From a virus: DNA of 20,182 nt. Position 1 is the first letter of the stretch; each line of letters begins with the position of its first letter. The stretch covers positions 1 through 20,182 of the IMG/VR virus record IMGVR_UViG_3300031227_000562; one strand, 5' to 3'. Both the position numbers and the translations under genes were made by a program. Below the pieces are notes generated by a model, which was not told where the DNA came from, ran no database searches, and saw only the letters and a list, made by a program, of their open reading frames with translations. Positions 5,021 to 13,524 of this stretch are shown here, piece by piece.

Positions 5021-5049
5021 AGACAAAAACAAGGAGGTGAATATTTAAT

Positions 5050-5097
5050 ATGGCATATGGATTACAAACCTATCAGGATGGTGCAAGGAGAGAGGAT
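5050..5097 (+). CDS. Major capsid protein, exon 1 (16 codons)
   Basis: This is the first exon of the capsid gene. It has the strongest SD site in the window, AAGGAGGTGA (5031-5040), 9 nt before ATG 5050. It codes for a short N-terminal arm ending ...GARRED. The last six exon bases GAGGAT pair with the intron guide sequence, and the terminal T forms the U.G pair expected at a group I 5' splice site. Without splicing, the frame runs 13 codons into the intron and stops at TGA 5137-5139. Confidence 0.88.
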
Positions 5098-6031
5098 CAA
5101 CTTTACCGCGTCATACACTATGATAAAATTAGTGAATGATAAAAAGTTGTAATCTATGTGGGAAGGAATATGAAACAGATAATAACAAACGAAAATTTTG
5201 TTCTAGGGAATGTTTCAATTTATTCCAAGATAAGAAGAAGATCGTCGCATGTGATACATGTGGCAAGCACATTAAAAGACAGTTAAGTAGTATAGGGAAA
5301 ACTAACTTTTGCAGCGAAAATTGCTTACATAAATGGCAAGCAAAGAATTGGCAAAGGTATCCTGAACTTTTGGATAAAGAATGGTGTATAGAGCAGTATG
5401 GCACTAAGAGTCTACTGGAAATTGCTGAACTTCTAGGTTGTGGAGAAACAACTGTTTGGAAGTATTTTAATCGACATGGGATCAAGCGAGATAGGTCCAG
5501 GTCATTAATGGGTAAGGCTAAGTCTAAGGAGCATCGCAATAATTTATCGTTAAGCAGGATGGGTAAGTTTTTAGGAGAAGACAATCCAAACTGGAAGGGT
5601 GGGATTACCGAATTAGGTTTACATATACGATCACTTAAACAATACGATAGGTGGAGAAAAGCAGTGATGAGATCTAGCGCAGTATGCTGCTTCTGTGGAA
5701 CAGACAAGAATTTGGAAGCTGACCATATAAAGAAATTTGCTCACATACTCAGGGATAATGACATTACCTCGGCACAAAAAGCGAGGGAATGTAAAGAGCT
5801 TTGGGATGTAGCTAATGGTCGGGTTTTGTGCAGAAGTTGTAATATTGGACGCGAGGTCCTCGATAAACTCAGCTAATTCGGCGAATGGAAGAACTCTTAA
5901 CGCCGAGCTAAATTTAAAAAGTCTAAGTGTAAATATGATTTTTTAATAAATGTGTAGAGACTATATACTGGGCTTCTGGAAACAGAATGATGACATAGTC
6001 CGATCCTTCTAGGGATAGAAGTAAAACAAAG
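5098..6031 (+). ncRNA. Group I intron in the capsid gene
   Basis: A self-splicing ribozyme of 934 nt interrupting the capsid gene. P1: exon GAGGAT (5092-5097) with GTCCTC (5856-5861), U.G at the cut. P10: 3' exon CTC (6032-6034) with GAG (5853-5855). P3: CTCAG (5868-5872) with CTGGG (5968-5972). P4: TCGGCG (5878-5883) with CGCCGA (5901-5906). P6 is probably an A/T-rich stem near 5914-5946. P7: GACTAT (5959-5964) with ATAGTC (5995-6000), containing the conserved GACATAGTCC-type S element. P8: TTCTG-GAAA-CAGAA (5974-5987). P9: CTTCTA-GGGA-TAGAAG (6006-6021). The last base is the expected G (6031). No P2 or P7.1/7.2 is evident; I leave the subtype open. The HNH gene fills the P1 loop. Confidence 0.92.
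5136..5876 (+). CDS. Intron-encoded HNH homing endonuclease
   Basis: A 246-residue site-specific nuclease expected to cut intronless capsid alleles and so spread the intron. Visible in order: zinc-knuckle 1 (Cys5, 8, 22, 26); zinc-knuckle 2 (Cys39, 42, 59, 63); a helix-turn-helix region (about 82-115); a NUMOD3-like DNA-binding segment ending NPNWKGG (about 127-156); and the HNH domain with Cys184/187, Asp196-His197, Asn227 and Cys232/235. All key catalytic positions appear intact. There is no clear SD site; ATG 5136 overlaps the TGA that ends read-through of capsid exon 1, suggesting termination-reinitiation. The start lies within a weak stem (CAACTTT 5098-5104 with AAAGTTG 5143-5149). The last nine codons double as the guide sequence and P3. 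Confidence 0.93.
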   Translation: MIKSCNLCGKEYETDNNKRKFCSRECFNLFQDKKKIVACDTCGKHIKRQLSSIGKTNFCSENCLHKWQAKNWQRYPELLDKEWCIEQYGTKSLLEIAELLGCGETTVWKYFNRHGIKRDRSRSLMGKAKSKEHRNNLSLSRMGKFLGEDNPNWKGGITELGLHIRSLKQYDRWRKAVMRSSAVCCFCGTDKNLEADHIKKFAHILRDNDITSAQKARECKELWDVANGRVLCRSCNIGREVLDKLS

Positions 6032-6898
6032 CTCTTAGATCTTATCGCTGATGTATCACCTGACGAAAATCCGTTAGCTACAATGCTTGGGCAAACAACT
6101 GCTTCACAGACATTACACGAATGGGTCGAGGATTACATTTCAAGACCTTCAAGTGTTTCATCGTCTGCTGAAGGTGCAGCGGCAACCTACAGTGACCTTA
6201 CCCAACCTGCAAGACGCAACAACATTACTCAAATCATTTCACAGACATACAGAGTGTCTGGAACAGAGAGAGCAGTATCAGTTGCTGGAATGGGCGATCC
6301 TATGGATTACCAGGCAAGCAAGGCATTGAAGAACTGGAAGAACAATCTGGAATACGCGTTATTGAACGCAACAGTAGCTTCTGGAGATTCTGGTGTTGGT
6401 AGACAGATGGCTGGTATACAAGCAATTGTAACCACTCACTACACAGCTAGAAACTCTGGAACGTCATTATCCGAGACTGAATTTAACAATATGGTCAAAG
6501 ATGTATGGGAAGATGTTGGACATAGCGATGTGTTTGATCTTGTATTAGTTCCTATGGGGCTAAAACAGAAAATCTCCACATTCACTGCTGGATCAACTAG
6601 ATATGTTGATGCAAGTGACAAGAGACTAACCAGACCTATCCAGGTATACGAATCCGACGGTGGAGTACATAGAATTATGTCTCACAAGGATGTATACAGT
6701 TCCACGACTACACCAGGACCTACTTTCTTAGGGCTTAAAGAGGATAAGTACAAGATTGCTTATCTCAGAAAACCATCTAGAGAGTTACTGGCAAAAGATG
6801 GAGATAGGGATAACGGACAGATAGTTGGAGAGGCCACTTTAGAGTACCTCGCAGAGCGAAGTTCCGTACGTAGAAGCGGTTATAACAGTAACGGCTAA
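6032..6898 (+). CDS. Major capsid protein, exon 2 (SU10-like HK97 fold)
   Basis: This is the shell-forming protein, 304 residues when exon 2 (288 residues) is joined to exon 1 (16 residues). The splice restores ...GARRED-LLDLIADVSPDENPL, the conserved N-terminal pattern of SU10-type (DUF5309) capsid proteins, where an acidic 'RED' arm precedes a 'disP..tPf' helix. Further family-like segments are RRNNITQIISQTYRVSGTE, a long helix LKNWKNNLEYALLNA, and a C-terminal YLRKPSRELLAKDGD. The first in-frame ATG at 6083 would give a protein lacking the N-arm and has no SD site, so it is not the real start. The gene ends 6 nt before a strong promoter and 36 nt before a terminator hairpin. Confidence 0.9.
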   Translation, partial: LLDLIADVSPDENPLATMLGQTTASQTLHEWVEDYISRPSSVSSSAEGAAATYSDLTQPARRNNITQIISQTYRVSGTERAVSVAGMGDPMDYQASKALKNWKNNLEYALLNATVASGDSGVGRQMAGIQAIVTTHYTARNSGTSLSETEFNNMVKDVWEDVGHSDVFDLVLVPMGLKQKISTFTAGSTRYVDASDKRLTRPIQVYESDGGVHRIMSHKDVYSSTTTPGPTFLGLKEDKYKIAYLRKPSRELLAKDGDRDNGQIVGEATLEYLAERSSVRRSGYNSNG

Positions 6899-6903
6899 GC
6901 GTG

Positions 6904-6932
6904 TTGACATGGTTTAACAACCATTGCATAAT
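6904..6932 (+). promoter_or_regulatory. Sigma70-type promoter TTGACA-N17-CATAAT
   Basis: A perfect -35 (TTGACA, 6904-6909), a 17-nt spacer, and a -10 differing at one base (CATAAT, 6927-6932) lie just after the capsid stop. Transcription would start near 6939, inside the 5' arm of the following terminator hairpin. It would drive the downstream gene and the glycan cassette. This is the best promoter match in the window. Confidence 0.72.
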
Positions 6933-6934
6933 TG

Positions 6935-6958
6935 GGGCGATCGAAAGGTCGCCCTTTT
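6935..6958 (+). terminator. Terminator hairpin after capsid gene
   Basis: The stem GGGCGA (6935-6940) pairs with TCGCCC (6949-6954), loop TCGAAAGG, followed by TTTT. The loop's GAAAGG is also the only SD-like site for ATG 6959. The stem sequence is unrelated to elements A, B and C, but the hairpin/T-run/ATG arrangement is the same. Confidence 0.72.
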
Positions 6959-7390: not shown

Positions 7391-7413
7391 CTTCAGTGAT
7401 AGAATAAGAAGGT

Positions 7414-9273
7414 ATGCCAAACAATAGCAAAATCGCACTAGCGATGATATTAAAAGGCAATGAGCCCACAGAGGCAGTAGACAGATGTCTTTCAACAATA
7501 GCGAAGTGGGTAGACGGAATATTTTTAACAATCACAACCCCAGATGAAGGTGTAGCAGATATAGCAAAGAAATATGGCGCACACTACGAGATACTTCCAT
7601 ATAAATTTCACAAGAAGATAGACAAGAAGACACACAAGTGGCTCAAAGATTCATTCAAGTATGAACCCAAGGTTAAAGTGGGTGATCGTATTTTCCTGTT
7701 TGATAAAGCACGCAACTACAACTGGTCTAAAGTTGGTTCTGAGTATGAATGGATACTATGGATTGATGCAGATGATGTATTTAGGGTTGGAGAAGAGCTA
7801 AGAAATATAGTAGCCACAGCAGAAGAGAACAAAGCCGAGTCAGTATTTCTAAAATACATATACCAAGCGGTAATAGAGGATGGAAAGATAAAGGATATTG
7901 TCATTGAGCATTTAAGGGAACGCATAGTCAAGAACAACGGTGCATACAAATGGGTAGCACCTATACATGAAACGCTTATCGAGCAAAGACCGACCAAGAA
8001 GATACACGATAAGAGGTGCGATATATTACATTTAACAACTGACAGCAAGATGCGCAAAGCGATAGAGCGCAACATGAAGACTCTGGAATATTCTATTTAC
8101 GATACAAAAGCCAAAGACCCAAGACCAATATATTATTTAGGCAAAGCATACTATGATTTAAGAGGTAAAGGGGACTTTGAAAAGGCACTTGGGCTATTCA
8201 AGATATACCTATATGGTGCAGATGAATATGATAACAACAACAAATCAGGATGGGGTGAAGAGCGATCACAATGCTGGGAATATGTAGCTGAGATATACAG
8301 GGCGCAAGGTAAAGTGGACTATGCTATATCAGCATGTATGAACGCCTTGAAAGAGAGTTATAGATTCCCTTCGATATATTTGAATTTAGGATTGTGTTAT
8401 TTGGTAAAGAAGGATTGGGAAGCTGCATTACATTGGGTTAAACAGGCATTGAATGTCCCGCCACCTGATACATCGTTAGTTAATAACCCAAGAGATTTAA
8501 GGGCAAGAGCGCTAGAGGTTACTTATCACGCGTCATTAAACTTATCTTTACTAGACGAGGCAAGGGCGGCTGCTGATAAGCTACTTGAAACCTTCCCTGG
8601 TGACGAAGAGATGACAAAGAGATCGCAACTAACTCACACGCTAACACAGGAACGTGAAGCCACAAGGAGCATTGTGTTGTTATCAAAATATTTAGAAGCT
8701 ATTGGCGAGGGCAATAAGCTCCGTATGTTGATAGGATCAGCACCATCTCCAATAGCCAACAATCCATTTTTAGTAGATTTACAGAAGAGGGTGTTCCCGC
8801 CAAAAGAGTGGGGAAATAACGAGATAGCAATATTATGTGGGCAAGGGTTCACTACCTGGAGTCCTAAGCTATTAGAGATGCCAGATCAATCATTTATAGG
8901 TGGAAGCGAAGAGGCGGTTATCTACCTGTCTAAGGAGCTAGCTGATTTAGGGTGGAAGGTTACAGTATATGCTGATCCTGGTGAAGACGAGGGCGAGCAT
9001 GAGGGAGTGACCTACTTACCATATTACAAGTTCAATCCTCTTGACAGCTTTAACGTACTGGTTGCATGGAGAAACCCTCAGTTTGTTGATGGTGATATAA
9101 AGGCCAAGCAGGTGTACCTATGGGCACACGATATTTTAAATGCTTTAGATTTTACTGAAGAGAGGGTAGCGAAATGGACAAAGATATTTGTATTAAGCCC
9201 ATGGCATAGAGAGAACATACCGAGCGTACCAGACGATAAAATAGTTATATCGGGGAATGGAATAACATTATGA
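7414..9273 (+). CDS. Fused GT2 glycosyltransferase - TPR - GT-B N-domain
   Basis: A 619-residue multidomain enzyme, probably moving sugars from nucleotide donors to a virion or host surface glycan. ATG 7414 has AAGAAGG close upstream. The N-terminus is a GT-A fold of family GT2: KIALAMILKGNE, then WIDADD (Asp118, Asp120, Asp121) as the metal/donor-binding DxD motif, and APIHE near 190. Residues about 225-400 look like TPR helical repeats. From about 468 the Rossmann-like N-domain of a GT-B (GT4-type) enzyme begins, with IGGSEEAV near 495 and SGNGIT at the very end. The protein stops exactly where GT-B linkers lead to the C-domain, which is found in the next gene in another frame. See the split-gene finding. 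Confidence 0.85.
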   Translation: MPNNSKIALAMILKGNEPTEAVDRCLSTIAKWVDGIFLTITTPDEGVADIAKKYGAHYEILPYKFHKKIDKKTHKWLKDSFKYEPKVKVGDRIFLFDKARNYNWSKVGSEYEWILWIDADDVFRVGEELRNIVATAEENKAESVFLKYIYQAVIEDGKIKDIVIEHLRERIVKNNGAYKWVAPIHETLIEQRPTKKIHDKRCDILHLTTDSKMRKAIERNMKTLEYSIYDTKAKDPRPIYYLGKAYYDLRGKGDFEKALGLFKIYLYGADEYDNNNKSGWGEERSQCWEYVAEIYRAQGKVDYAISACMNALKESYRFPSIYLNLGLCYLVKKDWEAALHWVKQALNVPPPDTSLVNNPRDLRARALEVTYHASLNLSLLDEARAAADKLLETFPGDEEMTKRSQLTHTLTQEREATRSIVLLSKYLEAIGEGNKLRMLIGSAPSPIANNPFLVDLQKRVFPPKEWGNNEIAILCGQGFTTWSPKLLEMPDQSFIGGSEEAVIYLSKELADLGWKVTVYADPGEDEGEHEGVTYLPYYKFNPLDSFNVLVAWRNPQFVDGDIKAKQVYLWAHDILNALDFTEERVAKWTKIFVLSPWHRENIPSVPDDKIVISGNGITL

Positions 9274-9872
9274 GAAATCCATACAGATGCATATACACGT
9301 CAAGTTATGATAGAGGTTTAGAACACCTTTTAAAGATATGGCCTGATGTAAAGAAGGCAGTACCAAAAGCTGAGTTACATGTGTTTTATGGATGGATGCT
9401 GTTTGAGAGGTTTTACGGAGATAACCCAGAGCGTATGGCATGGATGAAGAAGATGAATGAGTTAATGGAGCAAGACGGTATAACGCATCATGGCAGGGTA
9501 TCACAATCTGATGTAGCCAAAGAGATGGAAAAGAGCGGTGTATGGGCATATCCTACACATTTTGGTGAGATATCCTGTATAACTGCAATGAAGGCACAGG
9601 CATTGGGTTCTATACCAGTAATAATTGATTATGCAGCCTTAGAGACTACTGTAAAGTTTGGTGTAAAGGTCAAGGGTGATATATATGATAAAGAGACAAA
9701 GAAAAAATACACAGAAGAGCTGGTAGCAATATTAAAAAACCACAAGAAGCAAGAAGAGATACGCAAACCCATGATGAAATGGGCAAGGGAATATTACAAA
9801 TGGTCAAATATAGCGAAACAATGGAGCGATTTATTTAAATCAGAAGATGGAAACAAACAGACCAAGGGATAA
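9270..9872 (+). CDS. GT4-type glycosyltransferase C-domain (split half)
   Basis: A 200-residue protein consisting only of a GT-B C-terminal domain, which normally binds the nucleotide-sugar donor. It opens with RNPYRCIYTSSYDRGLEHLL, the first strand and helix of the domain, and has the GEISCITAMKAQALGSIPV donor-site motif (an E-x7-E-like region). It has no N-domain of its own. ATG 9270 overlaps the stop of the previous gene (ATGA), so it is probably translated by reinitiation and may work in trans with the upstream N-domain. Compared with intact GT4 proteins, about ten linker residues after 'NGI' are missing. It could be a functional split enzyme or a recent break. Confidence 0.8.
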   Translation: MRNPYRCIYTSSYDRGLEHLLKIWPDVKKAVPKAELHVFYGWMLFERFYGDNPERMAWMKKMNELMEQDGITHHGRVSQSDVAKEMEKSGVWAYPTHFGEISCITAMKAQALGSIPVIIDYAALETTVKFGVKVKGDIYDKETKKKYTEELVAILKNHKKQEEIRKPMMKWAREYYKWSNIAKQWSDLFKSEDGNKQTKG

Positions 9873-10074
9873 CCAAGGAAGATTCACCGCAGACAGCAAG
9901 GATGAACGCAATATAACCAGATGTCCTGAGTGTGGCAAGATTATACCCATTGAAGACATAAGAGGAACTCACTTTTGTTCAAGGATATGTGAGACTAATT
10001 ACAGGTACAGGATGAAGCACATGGACCCGATGACGGGCAATTTGCCTAACCCTAAAGATGTTAAGAAATGGTAA
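9847..10074 (+). CDS. Small zinc-ribbon protein
   Basis: A 75-residue protein starting 26 nt inside the previous gene in another frame. It has a polar N-terminus, then CPEC and, 18 residues on, a CSRIC knuckle, giving a four-cysteine zinc site, followed by a basic RYRMKH stretch. The second knuckle (FCSRxC) resembles the zinc knuckles of the HNH endonuclease (FCSREC), which may reflect a shared ancestry or just a common motif. Nucleic-acid binding is plausible but not shown. No SD site is strong (CAGAAG just before the ATG), so coupling to the upstream gene is likely. Confidence 0.7.
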   Translation: METNRPRDNQGRFTADSKDERNITRCPECGKIIPIEDIRGTHFCSRICETNYRYRMKHMDPMTGNLPNPKDVKKW

Positions 10075-10325
10075 GGCTCAAGTTCAGGTTCAGGGGACAA
10101 CAATACATATTATATTTGTTACCAACTATATCTAGGTACAACTGGGATCAATTTAGGCGAGGCATAAAATATTCTACTATAATATGGAAGGACTACGTTT
10201 ATTGTGAGTATGATGGGAAGTTACGTTCCTTTTGGTTGTTCAATCTTGAACAGGGATATATAGGCAAAGATAGTTTATCTAGATCTGTAAACGTATGGAA
10301 AATAAAAAAGGTCTGGATGATATAA
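10068..10325 (+). CDS. Small basic hypothetical protein
   Basis: An 85-residue protein overlapping the previous gene by 7 nt (ATGGTAA) and the next by 31 nt. It is basic and rich in aromatic residues (Tyr, Trp, Phe), with an early hydrophobic stretch YILYLLPTIS that is too short for a confident membrane helix. I do not recognise the family. It fills the only gap between the zinc-ribbon gene and the methyltransferase, and the tight overlaps on both sides support a real gene, but evidence is otherwise thin. Confidence 0.55.
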   Translation: MVRLKFRFRGQQYILYLLPTISRYNWDQFRRGIKYSTIIWKDYVYCEYDGKLRSFWLFNLEQGYIGKDSLSRSVNVWKIKKVWMI

Positions 10326-10900
10326 TCAACGCTGCTTTCAAAGAACTTGAAACGCTAAGTATTGAGACAATACTATCTGACTTAAAAGACTGTAGCGAAG
10401 GTGGTTTGCGAGATGTGCTTGACACTAAGAACAGTCAATATTATCAGTGGTTAGCAGCATTAATGCGTACATATAAGCCGCGACAAATTGTCGAATTAGG
10501 TGGAGCGATGGGAGTATCAGCGTTGTGTATGCTGAGCCAGTTACCAGTAGATGCTAAGTTGTACAGCATAACACTAGAAGAGGAAAGCAAAGAATTCTCA
10601 TTTATCAAGACAGAATATCCACAACTAACAAAAATAATAGGCGATGATAGCGATTTGAGTCTATGGCCTAAAGATTTAGACTGGAGTAAGACCGACTTGC
10701 TGTTCATAGACGGAGAGCATACATCAGAGGCTGTGAGACGCGAGCTAAAGGATTATTTACCGAAAGTGGGTAAAGACACGCTAGTGCTACTAGATGACAT
10801 TAAAATGCCTGAGATTTGGCCTGTGTGGCTTGAGATAGAAAACGATAAAATAGACATAAGTGTATTGCATCATAGTGGATTTGGTTGTTTAGTAACATGA
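10295..10900 (+). CDS. SAM-dependent methyltransferase (class I)
   Basis: A 201-residue methyltransferase of the Methyltransf_24 type. The Rossmann motif I is IVELGGAMGVSA (Glu67), where S-adenosylmethionine binds. LLFIDGEHTSEAVRREL (Asp139, His142) is the family's characteristic strand-4 region. VLLDDIKMPEIWP follows, with a possible metal-binding Asp pair. Such enzymes in glycan clusters O-methylate sugars, often capping a chain. It begins 31 nt inside the previous gene, and its TGA overlaps an ATG (ATGA, 10897) that opens the damaged small gene. The substrate cannot be read from sequence; sugar methylation is inferred from its neighbours. Confidence 0.82.
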   Translation: MENKKGLDDIINAAFKELETLSIETILSDLKDCSEGGLRDVLDTKNSQYYQWLAALMRTYKPRQIVELGGAMGVSALCMLSQLPVDAKLYSITLEEESKEFSFIKTEYPQLTKIIGDDSDLSLWPKDLDWSKTDLLFIDGEHTSEAVRRELKDYLPKVGKDTLVLLDDIKMPEIWPVWLEIENDKIDISVLHHSGFGCLVT

Positions 10901-11102
10901 TATACATATCAAGAACATTATTACCGACGATGAGTCTAGGGGTATAGCCAATACGGGATTATATTTGGTACACTTAAAACATGCTGACATGACAGCACAG
11001 AGGCACTTCGGGCCATACCTACGCGACTTTGATACTGGGTTGCTTGAAGTTGGCATAGGAGAGAAGGAATTAATACCGGCAGAAATAAGGGGGGAATTAT
11101 GA
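10897..11102 (+). pseudogene. Frameshifted small gene between methyltransferase and GT4
   Basis: ATG 10897 overlaps the methyltransferase stop, but its frame runs only 16 codons to a TAG. One base off, a 65-codon frame is open from 10899 to TGA 11100-11102, which overlaps the next gene's ATG. Joined at about codon 5, the protein would read MIYIS-KNIITDDESRGIA..., ending GEKELIPAEIRGEL, a compact natural-looking sequence of about 69 residues. This implies loss of one base near 10908-10912. Alternatives are a sequence error, a -1 frameshift, or a shorter gene starting at TTG 10968 (SD GGGA). Function unknown. Confidence 0.55.
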
Positions 11103-11923
11103 AGCTAGATTTGATTTGGTACTTCGATCAAGCTAAAGAGATATGGCCTAACTATCGTGATGGTGTTAGAGCAGCGATGGAAGAGCTTGAAAGACGCGGA
11201 CACACTGTAAGGTGGCATTTAGGCACTGATGTAAAGATAGAGGATGATTCAGACTTCATATTAAATTGGGACAACTCCACAAGCCAATTCATTGGTGAAT
11301 TTCACAAGTACCCTAACATCCGCAAAGGATTGATATTAACAACAGAGCTAGGGCTAAACATAGAGAGTTTAAAGAACTATGATGTTGTGTTTGCTGAATC
11401 AGATTATGTGGCAAGTCTCATAAAGCCACATGGCGTAAGGGTTATAACAGCATTTGGAACTGATACTAATTTCTTTTCCCCGCATAGCATAAAAACACCC
11501 AAAGATTACAAGGCTTTTTACCCTTCAACATTTAGCCCATGGAAAAGGCAAGACGTTTTTGCTGATCTGTATGGTGATAAAGGATTATGTTTAGGTACTA
11601 TCCAGCCAGACGGTTGGGATATATTAAGGCATACAGTCGAGAAAGGCACAAATGTATATATCGGATATCTACCAGTTGAAAGGGTGCGGGAATTCTACAG
11701 GAATTGTGAGATGGTACATATAACGGGATATGAAGGAAGCGGGCGCACGGTAATTGAAGCTTTAAGCATGGATATGCCTGTAGAGGCCTCACCTGACAAT
11801 CAGAAATGCCAATGCTATTTAGCAGAGTTTAAAGCGTCTGGTATGGGAGCTAGGGAGTTTGCAATAGCTTATTACAGCGCGCAAGGGTACGCAGATAGTT
11901 TAATGAAAGGAATAGATGGTTAA
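11099..11923 (+). CDS. GT4-type glycosyltransferase
   Basis: A 274-residue GT-B fold enzyme, short for the family but with both halves visible. ATG 11099 has a G-rich SD (AAGGGGGG) 5 nt upstream and overlaps the preceding frame's stop. The N-domain has ELERRGHTV and an inter-domain stretch FAESDYVASLIKPHG followed by AFGTDTNFFSP, where retaining GT4 enzymes have 'xNGID...F'. The C-domain has FYPSTFSPWKRQD and EGSGRTVIEALSMDMPVEA, the E-x7-E-like donor-binding segment. It would transfer a sugar, with retention, from a nucleotide donor. It overlaps the next GT2 gene by 8 nt. Confidence 0.82.
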   Translation: MKLDLIWYFDQAKEIWPNYRDGVRAAMEELERRGHTVRWHLGTDVKIEDDSDFILNWDNSTSQFIGEFHKYPNIRKGLILTTELGLNIESLKNYDVVFAESDYVASLIKPHGVRVITAFGTDTNFFSPHSIKTPKDYKAFYPSTFSPWKRQDVFADLYGDKGLCLGTIQPDGWDILRHTVEKGTNVYIGYLPVERVREFYRNCEMVHITGYEGSGRTVIEALSMDMPVEASPDNQKCQCYLAEFKASGMGAREFAIAYYSAQGYADSLMKGIDG

Positions 11924-12650
11924 GTTATCAGTAGTAATACCGTGCTATTTAATCAAGCCAGAGCTAGTTGATTTAACAAAGAGTGCGATATACTCATTTA
12001 GGCAGGCGGAGTTACCTGAATGGGAGTTGGTACTCGTTGATGATGGGTCGTTGTTAGGGTCGGGGTATCTAAAAGAAGAGGCCGACACATACATACATCA
12101 CAAAAAGAATCAGGGGTTTATCAAGACGGTTAATGATGGGATAAACCTAGCGAGGGGTGAGTTGGTTGCAGTAGCAAATAATGATATACGGGTAGCACCA
12201 AATTTTTATGATGTTGCGAGAGATATTTTAGAAGACCCACAAATTGTATCGGTACATCCAAGAATGTTATTTTACGATGACCCCATCGAATATGGTATAG
12301 ACACTCATGCAACGGGTAAAGAGCGTTGGTGTCAATCGTCATTTTTTATATTAAAAGGCAAGCACTTATTCCCTGAAAATTATCAGGGTACAGGTGGGGC
12401 ATACGAAGATTGGCGATACTGGACTGATTTGAGGGATAACGAGGGGTATAAAACGGCGTACACAACAAAGACATGTTTCCAGCACAAAGATTCTTCTACA
12501 ACGCAGATAGTTGGTGAAAAGACAAAACATCATAAAGATAACGCCGAGGTATTCAAAGATGAGTTTGGGGATTACCCAGAGAATTATTTTGCTAAGAGAT
12601 ATCCCGAGCAGATGAGGGTTAATTGGCGTGACGAGTTTATGAAAATATGA
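11916..12650 (+). CDS. GT2 family glycosyltransferase
   Basis: A 244-residue GT-A enzyme of the rhamnosyltransferase-like GT2 group. Motifs: KLSVVIPCY at the N-terminus, VLVDDGS (Asp42, Asp43) binding the nucleotide, KNQGFIKTVNDGI, and AVANNDIRV (residues 88-90), the NND form of the metal-binding DxD motif. The region around GGAYEDWRYWTD may supply the acceptor base (Glu/Asp). AAGGA lies close to the start, and the gene overlaps the upstream GT4 gene by 8 nt. Its stop overlaps the ATG of the truncated sulfotransferase (ATGA). The donor and acceptor sugars cannot be deduced. Confidence 0.87.
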   Translation: MVKLSVVIPCYLIKPELVDLTKSAIYSFRQAELPEWELVLVDDGSLLGSGYLKEEADTYIHHKKNQGFIKTVNDGINLARGELVAVANNDIRVAPNFYDVARDILEDPQIVSVHPRMLFYDDPIEYGIDTHATGKERWCQSSFFILKGKHLFPENYQGTGGAYEDWRYWTDLRDNEGYKTAYTTKTCFQHKDSSTTQIVGEKTKHHKDNAEVFKDEFGDYPENYFAKRYPEQMRVNWRDEFMKI

Positions 12651-12805
12651 TAATACTTAATAATAGTGTGTTTTACGATATGCCCAAAACAGGTGGGTCG
12701 TGGGTATCAGAGGGACTCATGGCTTATGCCAATGGTGAGTTTATAGTTGGAACATCTCACCAGCCGCCTGATAACCTTGCAGTTTATTCTTTTACGTTCA
12801 TTTGA
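12647..12805 (+). pseudogene. Truncated sulfotransferase (N-terminal remnant)
   Basis: A 52-residue reading frame starting at an ATGA overlap with the GT2 gene. It begins MIILNNSVFYDMPKTGGSWV. PKTGGSW (residues 13-19) is the 5'-phosphosulfate loop that binds the PAPS donor in sulfotransferases. It ends VYSFTFI-stop, just where the family continues into the RxP...S motif that binds the 3'-phosphate. The rest of the enzyme (normally 150 or more residues) is missing, and the next gene begins 8 nt later, so a deletion has removed it. The remnant cannot be catalytic alone. Sugar sulfation was probably once part of this cassette. Confidence 0.65.
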
Positions 12806-12813
12806 AAGGTTTT

Positions 12814-13524
12814 ATGCAGATATCAGTAATAACGCCTAGTATCAGGCACGAAGGATTGCCTATTGTTGAGAAAGCGCTCAAACGTCAAGGCACGGAGTTT
12901 GAATGGCTCGTAGGGTCTCCTGAGCGACCGGAGAACCTTACAATGCCGTTTACATGGGTACAAGACCCTCCCAGGCTTAAAACCGACTATTGGGGTCTTT
13001 TTAAGTCATATAATGCATTATTAAAAGAGTGTAAGGGCGAGTTGGTGGTATCAATCCAAGATCACACGTTTTTTGATCCTGATGCACTAGGCAAGTTTTG
13101 GTATCACTATCAAGAAGAACCCAAGACATTGGTTACGGGTGTAGGGAATAAATATTCTAGTGATACATGGGCGACTAAAACGTGGCAGGATCCCCGCGAG
13201 AGAGATGATAGTGGATCATATTATCAGTGTTCGCATAGGGATATGGAGTTTAATTTTTGCTCGGTGCCACTAAAGGCATTTTATGCTGTAGGTGGATTTG
13301 ACGAATATCTTGACAGGTTTTCGTCGATATGCGGGTTAGATGTAGTAACGAGACTAGAAGCGATAGGCGGGTGGGATTTCAAGATCGACCAGACAAACAA
13401 GAGCTATAGCACGGAACACGGAAGGCCAGACGGATGGGAAGAAAACAACGCAATAAATGGGCCGTGGGGTGAGCGGTTAAAGCATTATATTGAGCATGGA
13501 CCGGTACTGGATTATTTAAAGTAA
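12814..13524 (+). CDS. GT2-like glycosyltransferase
   Basis: A 236-residue GT-A type enzyme. ATG 12814 has AAAGG 4 nt upstream and is preferred to the in-frame TTG at 12802, which overlaps the sulfotransferase remnant. Segments: MQISVITPSIRHEGLP at the start, WLVGSPERP as the nucleotide-binding strand, KSYNALLKECKGELVVSIQDHTFF with QDH (Asp83) in place of DxD, and NFCSVPLKAFYAVGGFDEYLD, the typical acceptor-side 'GGFDE' of GT2 enzymes. It is the last gene of the glycan cassette and ends 27 nt before the 13-mer of element B. GT2 membership is confident; the specific sugar is not. Confidence 0.82.
   Translation: MQISVITPSIRHEGLPIVEKALKRQGTEFEWLVGSPERPENLTMPFTWVQDPPRLKTDYWGLFKSYNALLKECKGELVVSIQDHTFFDPDALGKFWYHYQEEPKTLVTGVGNKYSSDTWATKTWQDPRERDDSGSYYQCSHRDMEFNFCSVPLKAFYAVGGFDEYLDRFSSICGLDVVTRLEAIGGWDFKIDQTNKSYSTEHGRPDGWEENNAINGPWGERLKHYIEHGPVLDYLK

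Follow-up and report, generated by a model that had tools for sequence, protein, structure and literature searches.

The closest described systems are the intron endonucleases of phage T4. I-TevI, I-TevII and I-TevIII have their own promoters, and their starts are hidden by a hairpin in the long pre-mRNA (PMC2988022). Transcripts begun inside the intron are the ones that get translated, translation threatens splicing, and T4 mutants without the I-TevI translational hairpin splice td more poorly (PMC2988022). Early in-frame stops are common in group I introns and have been interpreted as aiding splicing (PMC3984707). Two other lines of work bear on how such a gene can be started. Reinitiation can work without a Shine-Dalgarno sequence (SD) (PMC6728339), and coupling is almost abolished by a stop-start distance of ~20 nt (PMC10666635). 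Leaderless bacterial genes can be recognised by a TA-like box ~12 bp before the start codon (PMC3160421). In mycobacteriophages the ShiLan-type out-of-frame HNH insertions have no detectable ribosome site, and their authors propose leaderless initiation (PMC11855218).

An intron in the capsid gene

The window is the whole stretch of DNA that was analysed, a 20,182-base IMG/VR virus record. The gene at 5050 encodes an SU10-type major capsid protein and is interrupted after codon 16. Intronless alleles exist among its relatives. The protein reads continuously (MA.GL...RED-L(I/L)D...) in five close relatives and in most of 67 further loci, and the uninterrupted reading is ...RED-LIDIITDVSP with no gap. 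Since these relatives read RED-L unbroken, exon 1 is 5050-5097, the intron begins at 5098 and exon 2 begins at 6032. The features are as follows.

5031-5040, plus strand: SD AAGGAGGTGA of the capsid gene (-17.1 kcal/mol with the anti-SD, top among the window gene starts computed)
5050-5097, plus strand: exon 1 of the SU10-type major capsid gene, 16 codons, MAYGLQTYQDGARRED, with the ATG at 5050-5052 downstream of the SD (RED|L junction unbroken in most uninterrupted relatives)
5092-5097, plus strand: 5' strand of P1, GAGGAT, with the 5' splice site after T5097 (perfect pairing with 5856-5861; invariant in four orthologous introns)
5098-6031, plus strand: group I intron, 934 nt, last base G6031 (RF00028, 52.3 bits; covarying P3, P4, P5 and P9)
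5136-5876, plus strand: HNH endonuclease gene, product of 246 aa, start at 5136 predicted to be leaderless (matches to PHROG HNH families, E down to 1.9e-18; its M1 aligns with that of all three orthologues)
5855-5861, plus strand: internal guide sequence GGTCCTC, within the last HNH codons (TCCTC invariant in the four-intron alignment; full GGTCCTC in all four)
5868-5872, plus strand: 5' strand of P3, CTCAG, just before the HNH stop codon at 5874-5876 (pairs with CTGGG 5968-5972)
5959-6000, plus strand: P7, GACTAT (5959-5964) with ATAGTC (5995-6000) (invariant in alignments of the four introns)
6032-6898, plus strand: exon 2 of the major capsid protein gene (PF17236, E 1.3e-57)

The RF00028 match covers 5804-6022 at 52.3 bits (gathering 50), with E 3.9e-12 for the 1.2-kb stretch searched. 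A gathering scan of the whole window with Rfam listed nothing, and RF00028 emerged only with the short stretch. GTCCTC at 5856-5861 pairs perfectly with GAGGAT at 5092-5097 and places a U5097-G5856 pair at the splice site. RNAalifold on the four introns gives 24 pairs, 9 of which are changed on both sides, and P3 takes the form of three different helices. By its core, its splice-site pairing and this covariation the intron belongs to group I, and self-splicing is predicted. Since the guide sequence lies in the last HNH codons, the P1 loop holds the whole HNH gene, whose end extends into the ribozyme. A short stem nearer the splice site (5098-5104 with 5143-5149) was considered as P1 and rejected, as no nearby guide pairs with GAGGAT and GTCCTC at 5856 does so in all four introns.

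Three orthologous introns were found, L055 and L056 (both from one metagenome) by a capsid search and L176 by a guide-sequence pattern. They share the insertion site and guide sequence of the window, and their HNH proteins are 44-49% identical with M1 aligned. The HNH frame is intact in all four introns, with conserved Cys and HNH residues. A second contig (L006) has a 100% identical HNH in the same place. The family matches and these residues identify the product as a predicted HNH homing endonuclease. The Pfam HNH_2 match is 17.8 bits, under the cut-off of 21. No relatives of the intron HNH were found in INPHARED phages or GTDB genomes, and neither a sequence search nor a fold search of the PDB found any. 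The predicted structure is poor (pLDDT 64, pTM 0.29).

Several other insertions should be recorded. L176 (4366-5645) has a capsid gene with apparently two group I introns separated by an exon of ~50 nt, the second without an ORF. L073 (1880-3000) also has a capsid gene with apparently two, each near an HNH-like ORF; its second lies three codons downstream of the window's site, with GAT|TAA and with TATAAT 5 nt before an ATG. ORF-less intron-like insertions occur in the same capsid family at a site further upstream (L078, 2573-2970; L039, 2710-2970). A scan of genome contigs with the intron P4-P5 pattern gave 53 matches, none of which was judged by context to be this intron family. Within the window, a 75-aa zinc-ribbon ORF at 9847-10074 resembles part of HNH endonucleases (phrog_1271, E 2e-4); it starts inside the end of the preceding gene and is perhaps a remnant. 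Following the capsid gene, at 6904-6955, is a promoter-like TTGACA-17-CATAAT (11/12) and directly after it a strong terminator-like hairpin. Glycosyltransferase-like and other non-structural ORFs, most judged by eye, occupy 7414-13524 in a run between the capsid gene and later genes.

The stop-start overlap

The initial annotation was struck by what happens when the capsid gene is read without splicing:

5098-5139, plus strand: continuation of the exon 1 frame into the intron, 13 sense codons up to the TGA at 5137-5139 (from the sequence)

The codons are CAA CTT TAC CGC GTC ATA CAC TAT GAT AAA ATT AGT GAA TGA, and the stop overlaps the HNH ATG at 5136-5138 as ATGA. The coordinates are correct, and so are the observations that accompanied them. 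The HNH gene has no SD (-1.8 kcal/mol against a random median of -3.9), the capsid ribosome site is the strongest of the computed starts, and the weak stem at the HNH start is real as a 7-bp exact complement between 5098-5104 and 5143-5149. The minimum free energy fold is -15.4 kcal/mol (z -1.74), with 14 of 200 shuffles equally stable. In this fold the HNH AUG pairs with 5110-5114. The probability that it is unpaired is 0.03 in the pre-mRNA and 1.00 in an RNA starting at 5136, which is the leaderless form. We rejected an AUG-covering hairpin as a conserved feature, since neither L055 nor L176 has its AUG buried.

From this it had been argued that HNH is made only by termination and reinitiation. 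Ribosomes loaded at the capsid SD would translate exon 1 and 13 codons of the intron, opening the hairpin, then terminate at TGA 5137 and begin again at the overlapping AUG; splicing would take away the HNH reading and in that way set its dose. There are real points for this. The overlap is exact, there is no SD and none is strictly needed (PMC6728339), and the AUG is buried unless ribosomes open the stem. Several other SD-less genes in the window begin where the preceding gene stops or right beside that point. Half of the HNH genes that lack a leaderless promoter in related phages (12/24) begin between -22 and +4 nt from an upstream stop, and the UAAUGA overlap of mobE in phage Aeh1 suggests coupling (PMC2988022).

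The orthologues tell against it. In none of the three is the overlap present (0/3). The exon-1 stop lies upstream of the HNH ATG by 52 nt in L055, 54 nt in L056 and 12 nt in L176. For L055 and L056 that stop is the very first codon of the intron (GAT|TAA), and at such distances reinitiation should be nearly lost because ~20 nt almost abolishes coupling (PMC10666635). The read-through peptide is not conserved between the window and L176. An SD before HNH was not seen by eye in any of the three (pairing energies, where computed, are -4.0 for L055 and -3.8 for L056). What the orthologues keep instead is a promoter in the intron. There is also the problem of splicing. HNH translation on the pre-mRNA crosses the guide sequence and P3, and therefore should hinder splicing of the capsid mRNA. 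The simple switch that had been proposed for endonuclease dose omits the presence of these elements in the last HNH codons, and it could be a side route at best. We consider it quite unlikely that HNH is made only or mainly by reinitiation. The geometry (ATGA, -4), the dispensable SD and the other stop-adjacent starts leave some coupling plausible, and it is the word "only" that lacks support.

It must also be asked how surprising the overlap is. Among shuffled leaders in which ATGATAAA is kept, 26% have exactly the TGA 5137-5139 stop. Allowing for phase and for the base after ATG, we estimate that an ATGA overlap would arise by chance ~3-10% of the time, which makes the case for something above chance a weak one.

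A probable promoter at the start codon

The initial annotation had named an independent promoter and SD inside the intron as evidence that would count against its reading. The promoter is there in the sequence, and the SD is moot for a leaderless start.

5102-5107, plus strand: -35-like TTTACC (promoter scan; perfect TTGACA in L055 and L056)
5121-5129, plus strand: extended -10 TGaTAAAAT, 6 nt before the HNH ATG (promoter scan; shuffle P ~0.0013; position conserved in 4/4 introns)

Together they make a promoter-like site, TTTACC-16-TGaTAAAAT, at 5102-5129 (sigma-70 consensus). It is the weakest of the four (9/12 plus TG, spacer 16). L055 and L056 have a perfect TTGACA-17-TATAAT (12/12 matches) in the same place, and L176 has TGaTATAAT, 6 nt and then the ATG. 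The -10 box ends 6 nt before the ATG in the window, L055 and L176, and 9 nt before it in L056. Promoter-like sites as such are no more frequent in the region than expected (4 against 6.9), so the case for the promoter rests on position and conservation. Against dinucleotide shuffles the score at the HNH ATG has P 0.0013 in the window and 0.0006, 0.0008 and 0.0016 in the others (range 0.0006-0.0016), on a score that was defined after the first examples had been inspected. Only 2 of 451 ATGs in the window reach the HNH promoter score, and both are gene starts. T5124 lies 12 bp before A5136 and there is no SD, as in TA-led leaderless genes. A conserved -10 box this near an ATG without an SD is the signature of a leaderless mRNA, and it suggests a start at 5136. 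Elsewhere in the window a promoter-like TGaTAGAAT (7394-7416) stands 8 nt before the ATG, at 7414, of a 619-aa glycosyltransferase/TPR gene whose SD is weak.

The same arrangement was looked for in 13 contigs, the window and 12 relatives. The gap between a promoter-like site and an ORF ATG peaks at 6, 7 and 8 nt (12, 11 and 7 cases, against ~2 per gap elsewhere), and the ATGs of short ORFs in these contigs have no such peak. The pattern TGNTATAATN6ATG with one mismatch allowed has 38 matches in the 12 relatives and 11 in the reversed control. HNH genes, gathered by five family searches, are where it concentrates. A leaderless promoter stands at 13 of 37 HNH genes and at 15 of 613 others (Fisher 1.5e-10); with the six discovery cases removed it is still at 7 of 31 (P 3e-5). 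An SD without a leaderless promoter is found at 1/37 HNH genes versus 195/613 others. Leaving the window aside, none of the other 12 HNH genes with a leaderless promoter is at an upstream stop, against the 12 of 24 of the rest already mentioned (P 0.0025), which is a further point against reinitiation as the main route. The leaderless and stop-adjacent modes thus look like alternatives.

The mode is not general to introns, since introns at other capsid sites with LAGLIDADG-like ORFs (L021, 2287-2395; L038, 2249-2353; L065, 2060-2198) have their own SD sites and no promoter. In these three the exon reading likewise ends on the splice site or beside it. By eye, no obvious -10 box stands before the start in seven annotated HNH genes from cultured phages, several of which overlap the preceding gene. 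The leaderless HNH mode may be limited to this uncultured phage group.

One can imagine that all of this is chance and decay, with an endonuclease that is little used and a start-stop overlap and -10 box that are AT-rich accidents. The leader is indeed AT-rich and the overlap alone is not very unusual. This does not explain four introns with an unbroken HNH frame, 44-49% identity and conserved Cys and HNH residues, nor a promoter whose position is conserved and which is enriched at HNH genes. We regard it as very improbable.

We argue that a leaderless promoter is the main route to HNH, with a probability of roughly 60%. The HNH gene would be a self-contained cassette in the P1 loop of a mobile group I intron inserted behind codon 16 of the capsid gene. 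Transcription would start at or next to the A of the HNH ATG, directed by a host-type sigma-70 extended -10 that ends 6 nt before it, and would give a leaderless mRNA. An RNA from 5136 has no exon 1, no 5' splice site and no 5' half of P1, and therefore cannot splice; its AUG would be free. The HNH AUG on the long capsid pre-mRNA, without an SD and in a hairpin, would rarely be used for initiation, and the intron core would fold and splice. Endonuclease and capsid would then come mainly from separate RNAs. The exon-1 read-through ending on the HNH start may add some reinitiation from unspliced RNA, in the window intron only.

A more even division is conceivable, in which HNH is leaderless early in infection and later coupled to unspliced capsid RNA, with the coupled share rising when splicing fails. 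The window intron is the only case with both a leaderless promoter and an upstream-stop overlap at one AUG, and relatives show each singly. Yet the overlap, which by our estimate chance alone would give ~3-10% of the time, carries no sign of selection, and L176 does not conserve the read-through peptide. We find two roughly equal routes rather doubtful. Even so, the leaderless promoter as main route leaves room for a wider reading, which we offer tentatively and with the odds against it. The HNH homing genes of this uncultured phage group may be self-contained leaderless cassettes that spare the pre-mRNA from ribosomes inside the ribozyme loop, and the window AUG may also serve as a reinitiation site that reports unspliced capsid RNA. 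The choice between coupling and promoter is made testable by two point mutations.

Comparison with known systems

A literature search found no description of this combination, nor of leaderless-promoter enrichment at HNH genes in a phage group. The likeness to the T4 I-Tev genes is that a phage group I intron houses an endonuclease gene which has a promoter of its own and a hairpin-hidden start. In T4 the hairpin sequesters an SD and the promoters are phage middle or late ones, whereas here there is no SD to sequester and the -10 is of an extended host type. A further difference is that the start predicted here coincides with the AUG and that HNH occupies the P1 loop. Lambda cI is leaderless likewise, with a -10 box ~12 bp upstream of its start codon and no SD; unlike HNH here, it is not in an intron. 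TA-led leaderless bacterial genes share the -10 ~12 bp upstream and the missing SD (PMC3160421), and what differs is that this one is a mobile endonuclease gene in a self-splicing intron.

ATGA reinitiation pairs (PMC6728339, PMC10666635) and Aeh1 mobE (PMC2988022) share the overlap, the want of a strong SD and the structured start. Here an unspliced exon supplies the upstream frame, the orthologous introns do not keep the overlap, and there is an independent promoter-like element. The ShiLan-type insertions also place HNH inside another phage gene; there no intron was found and no promoter appears to be described (PMC11855218), whereas the HNH gene here has a group I intron around it and a conserved -10 before it. 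The comparison suggests how an endonuclease gene can inhabit a capsid-gene intron without spoiling splicing, through a message that starts on its first codon, the long transcript being difficult to translate at that point. An SD-free leaderless cassette would be a style of mobile gene that makes no demands on the place where it lands, unlike the free-standing endonucleases of T4, which lack promoters.
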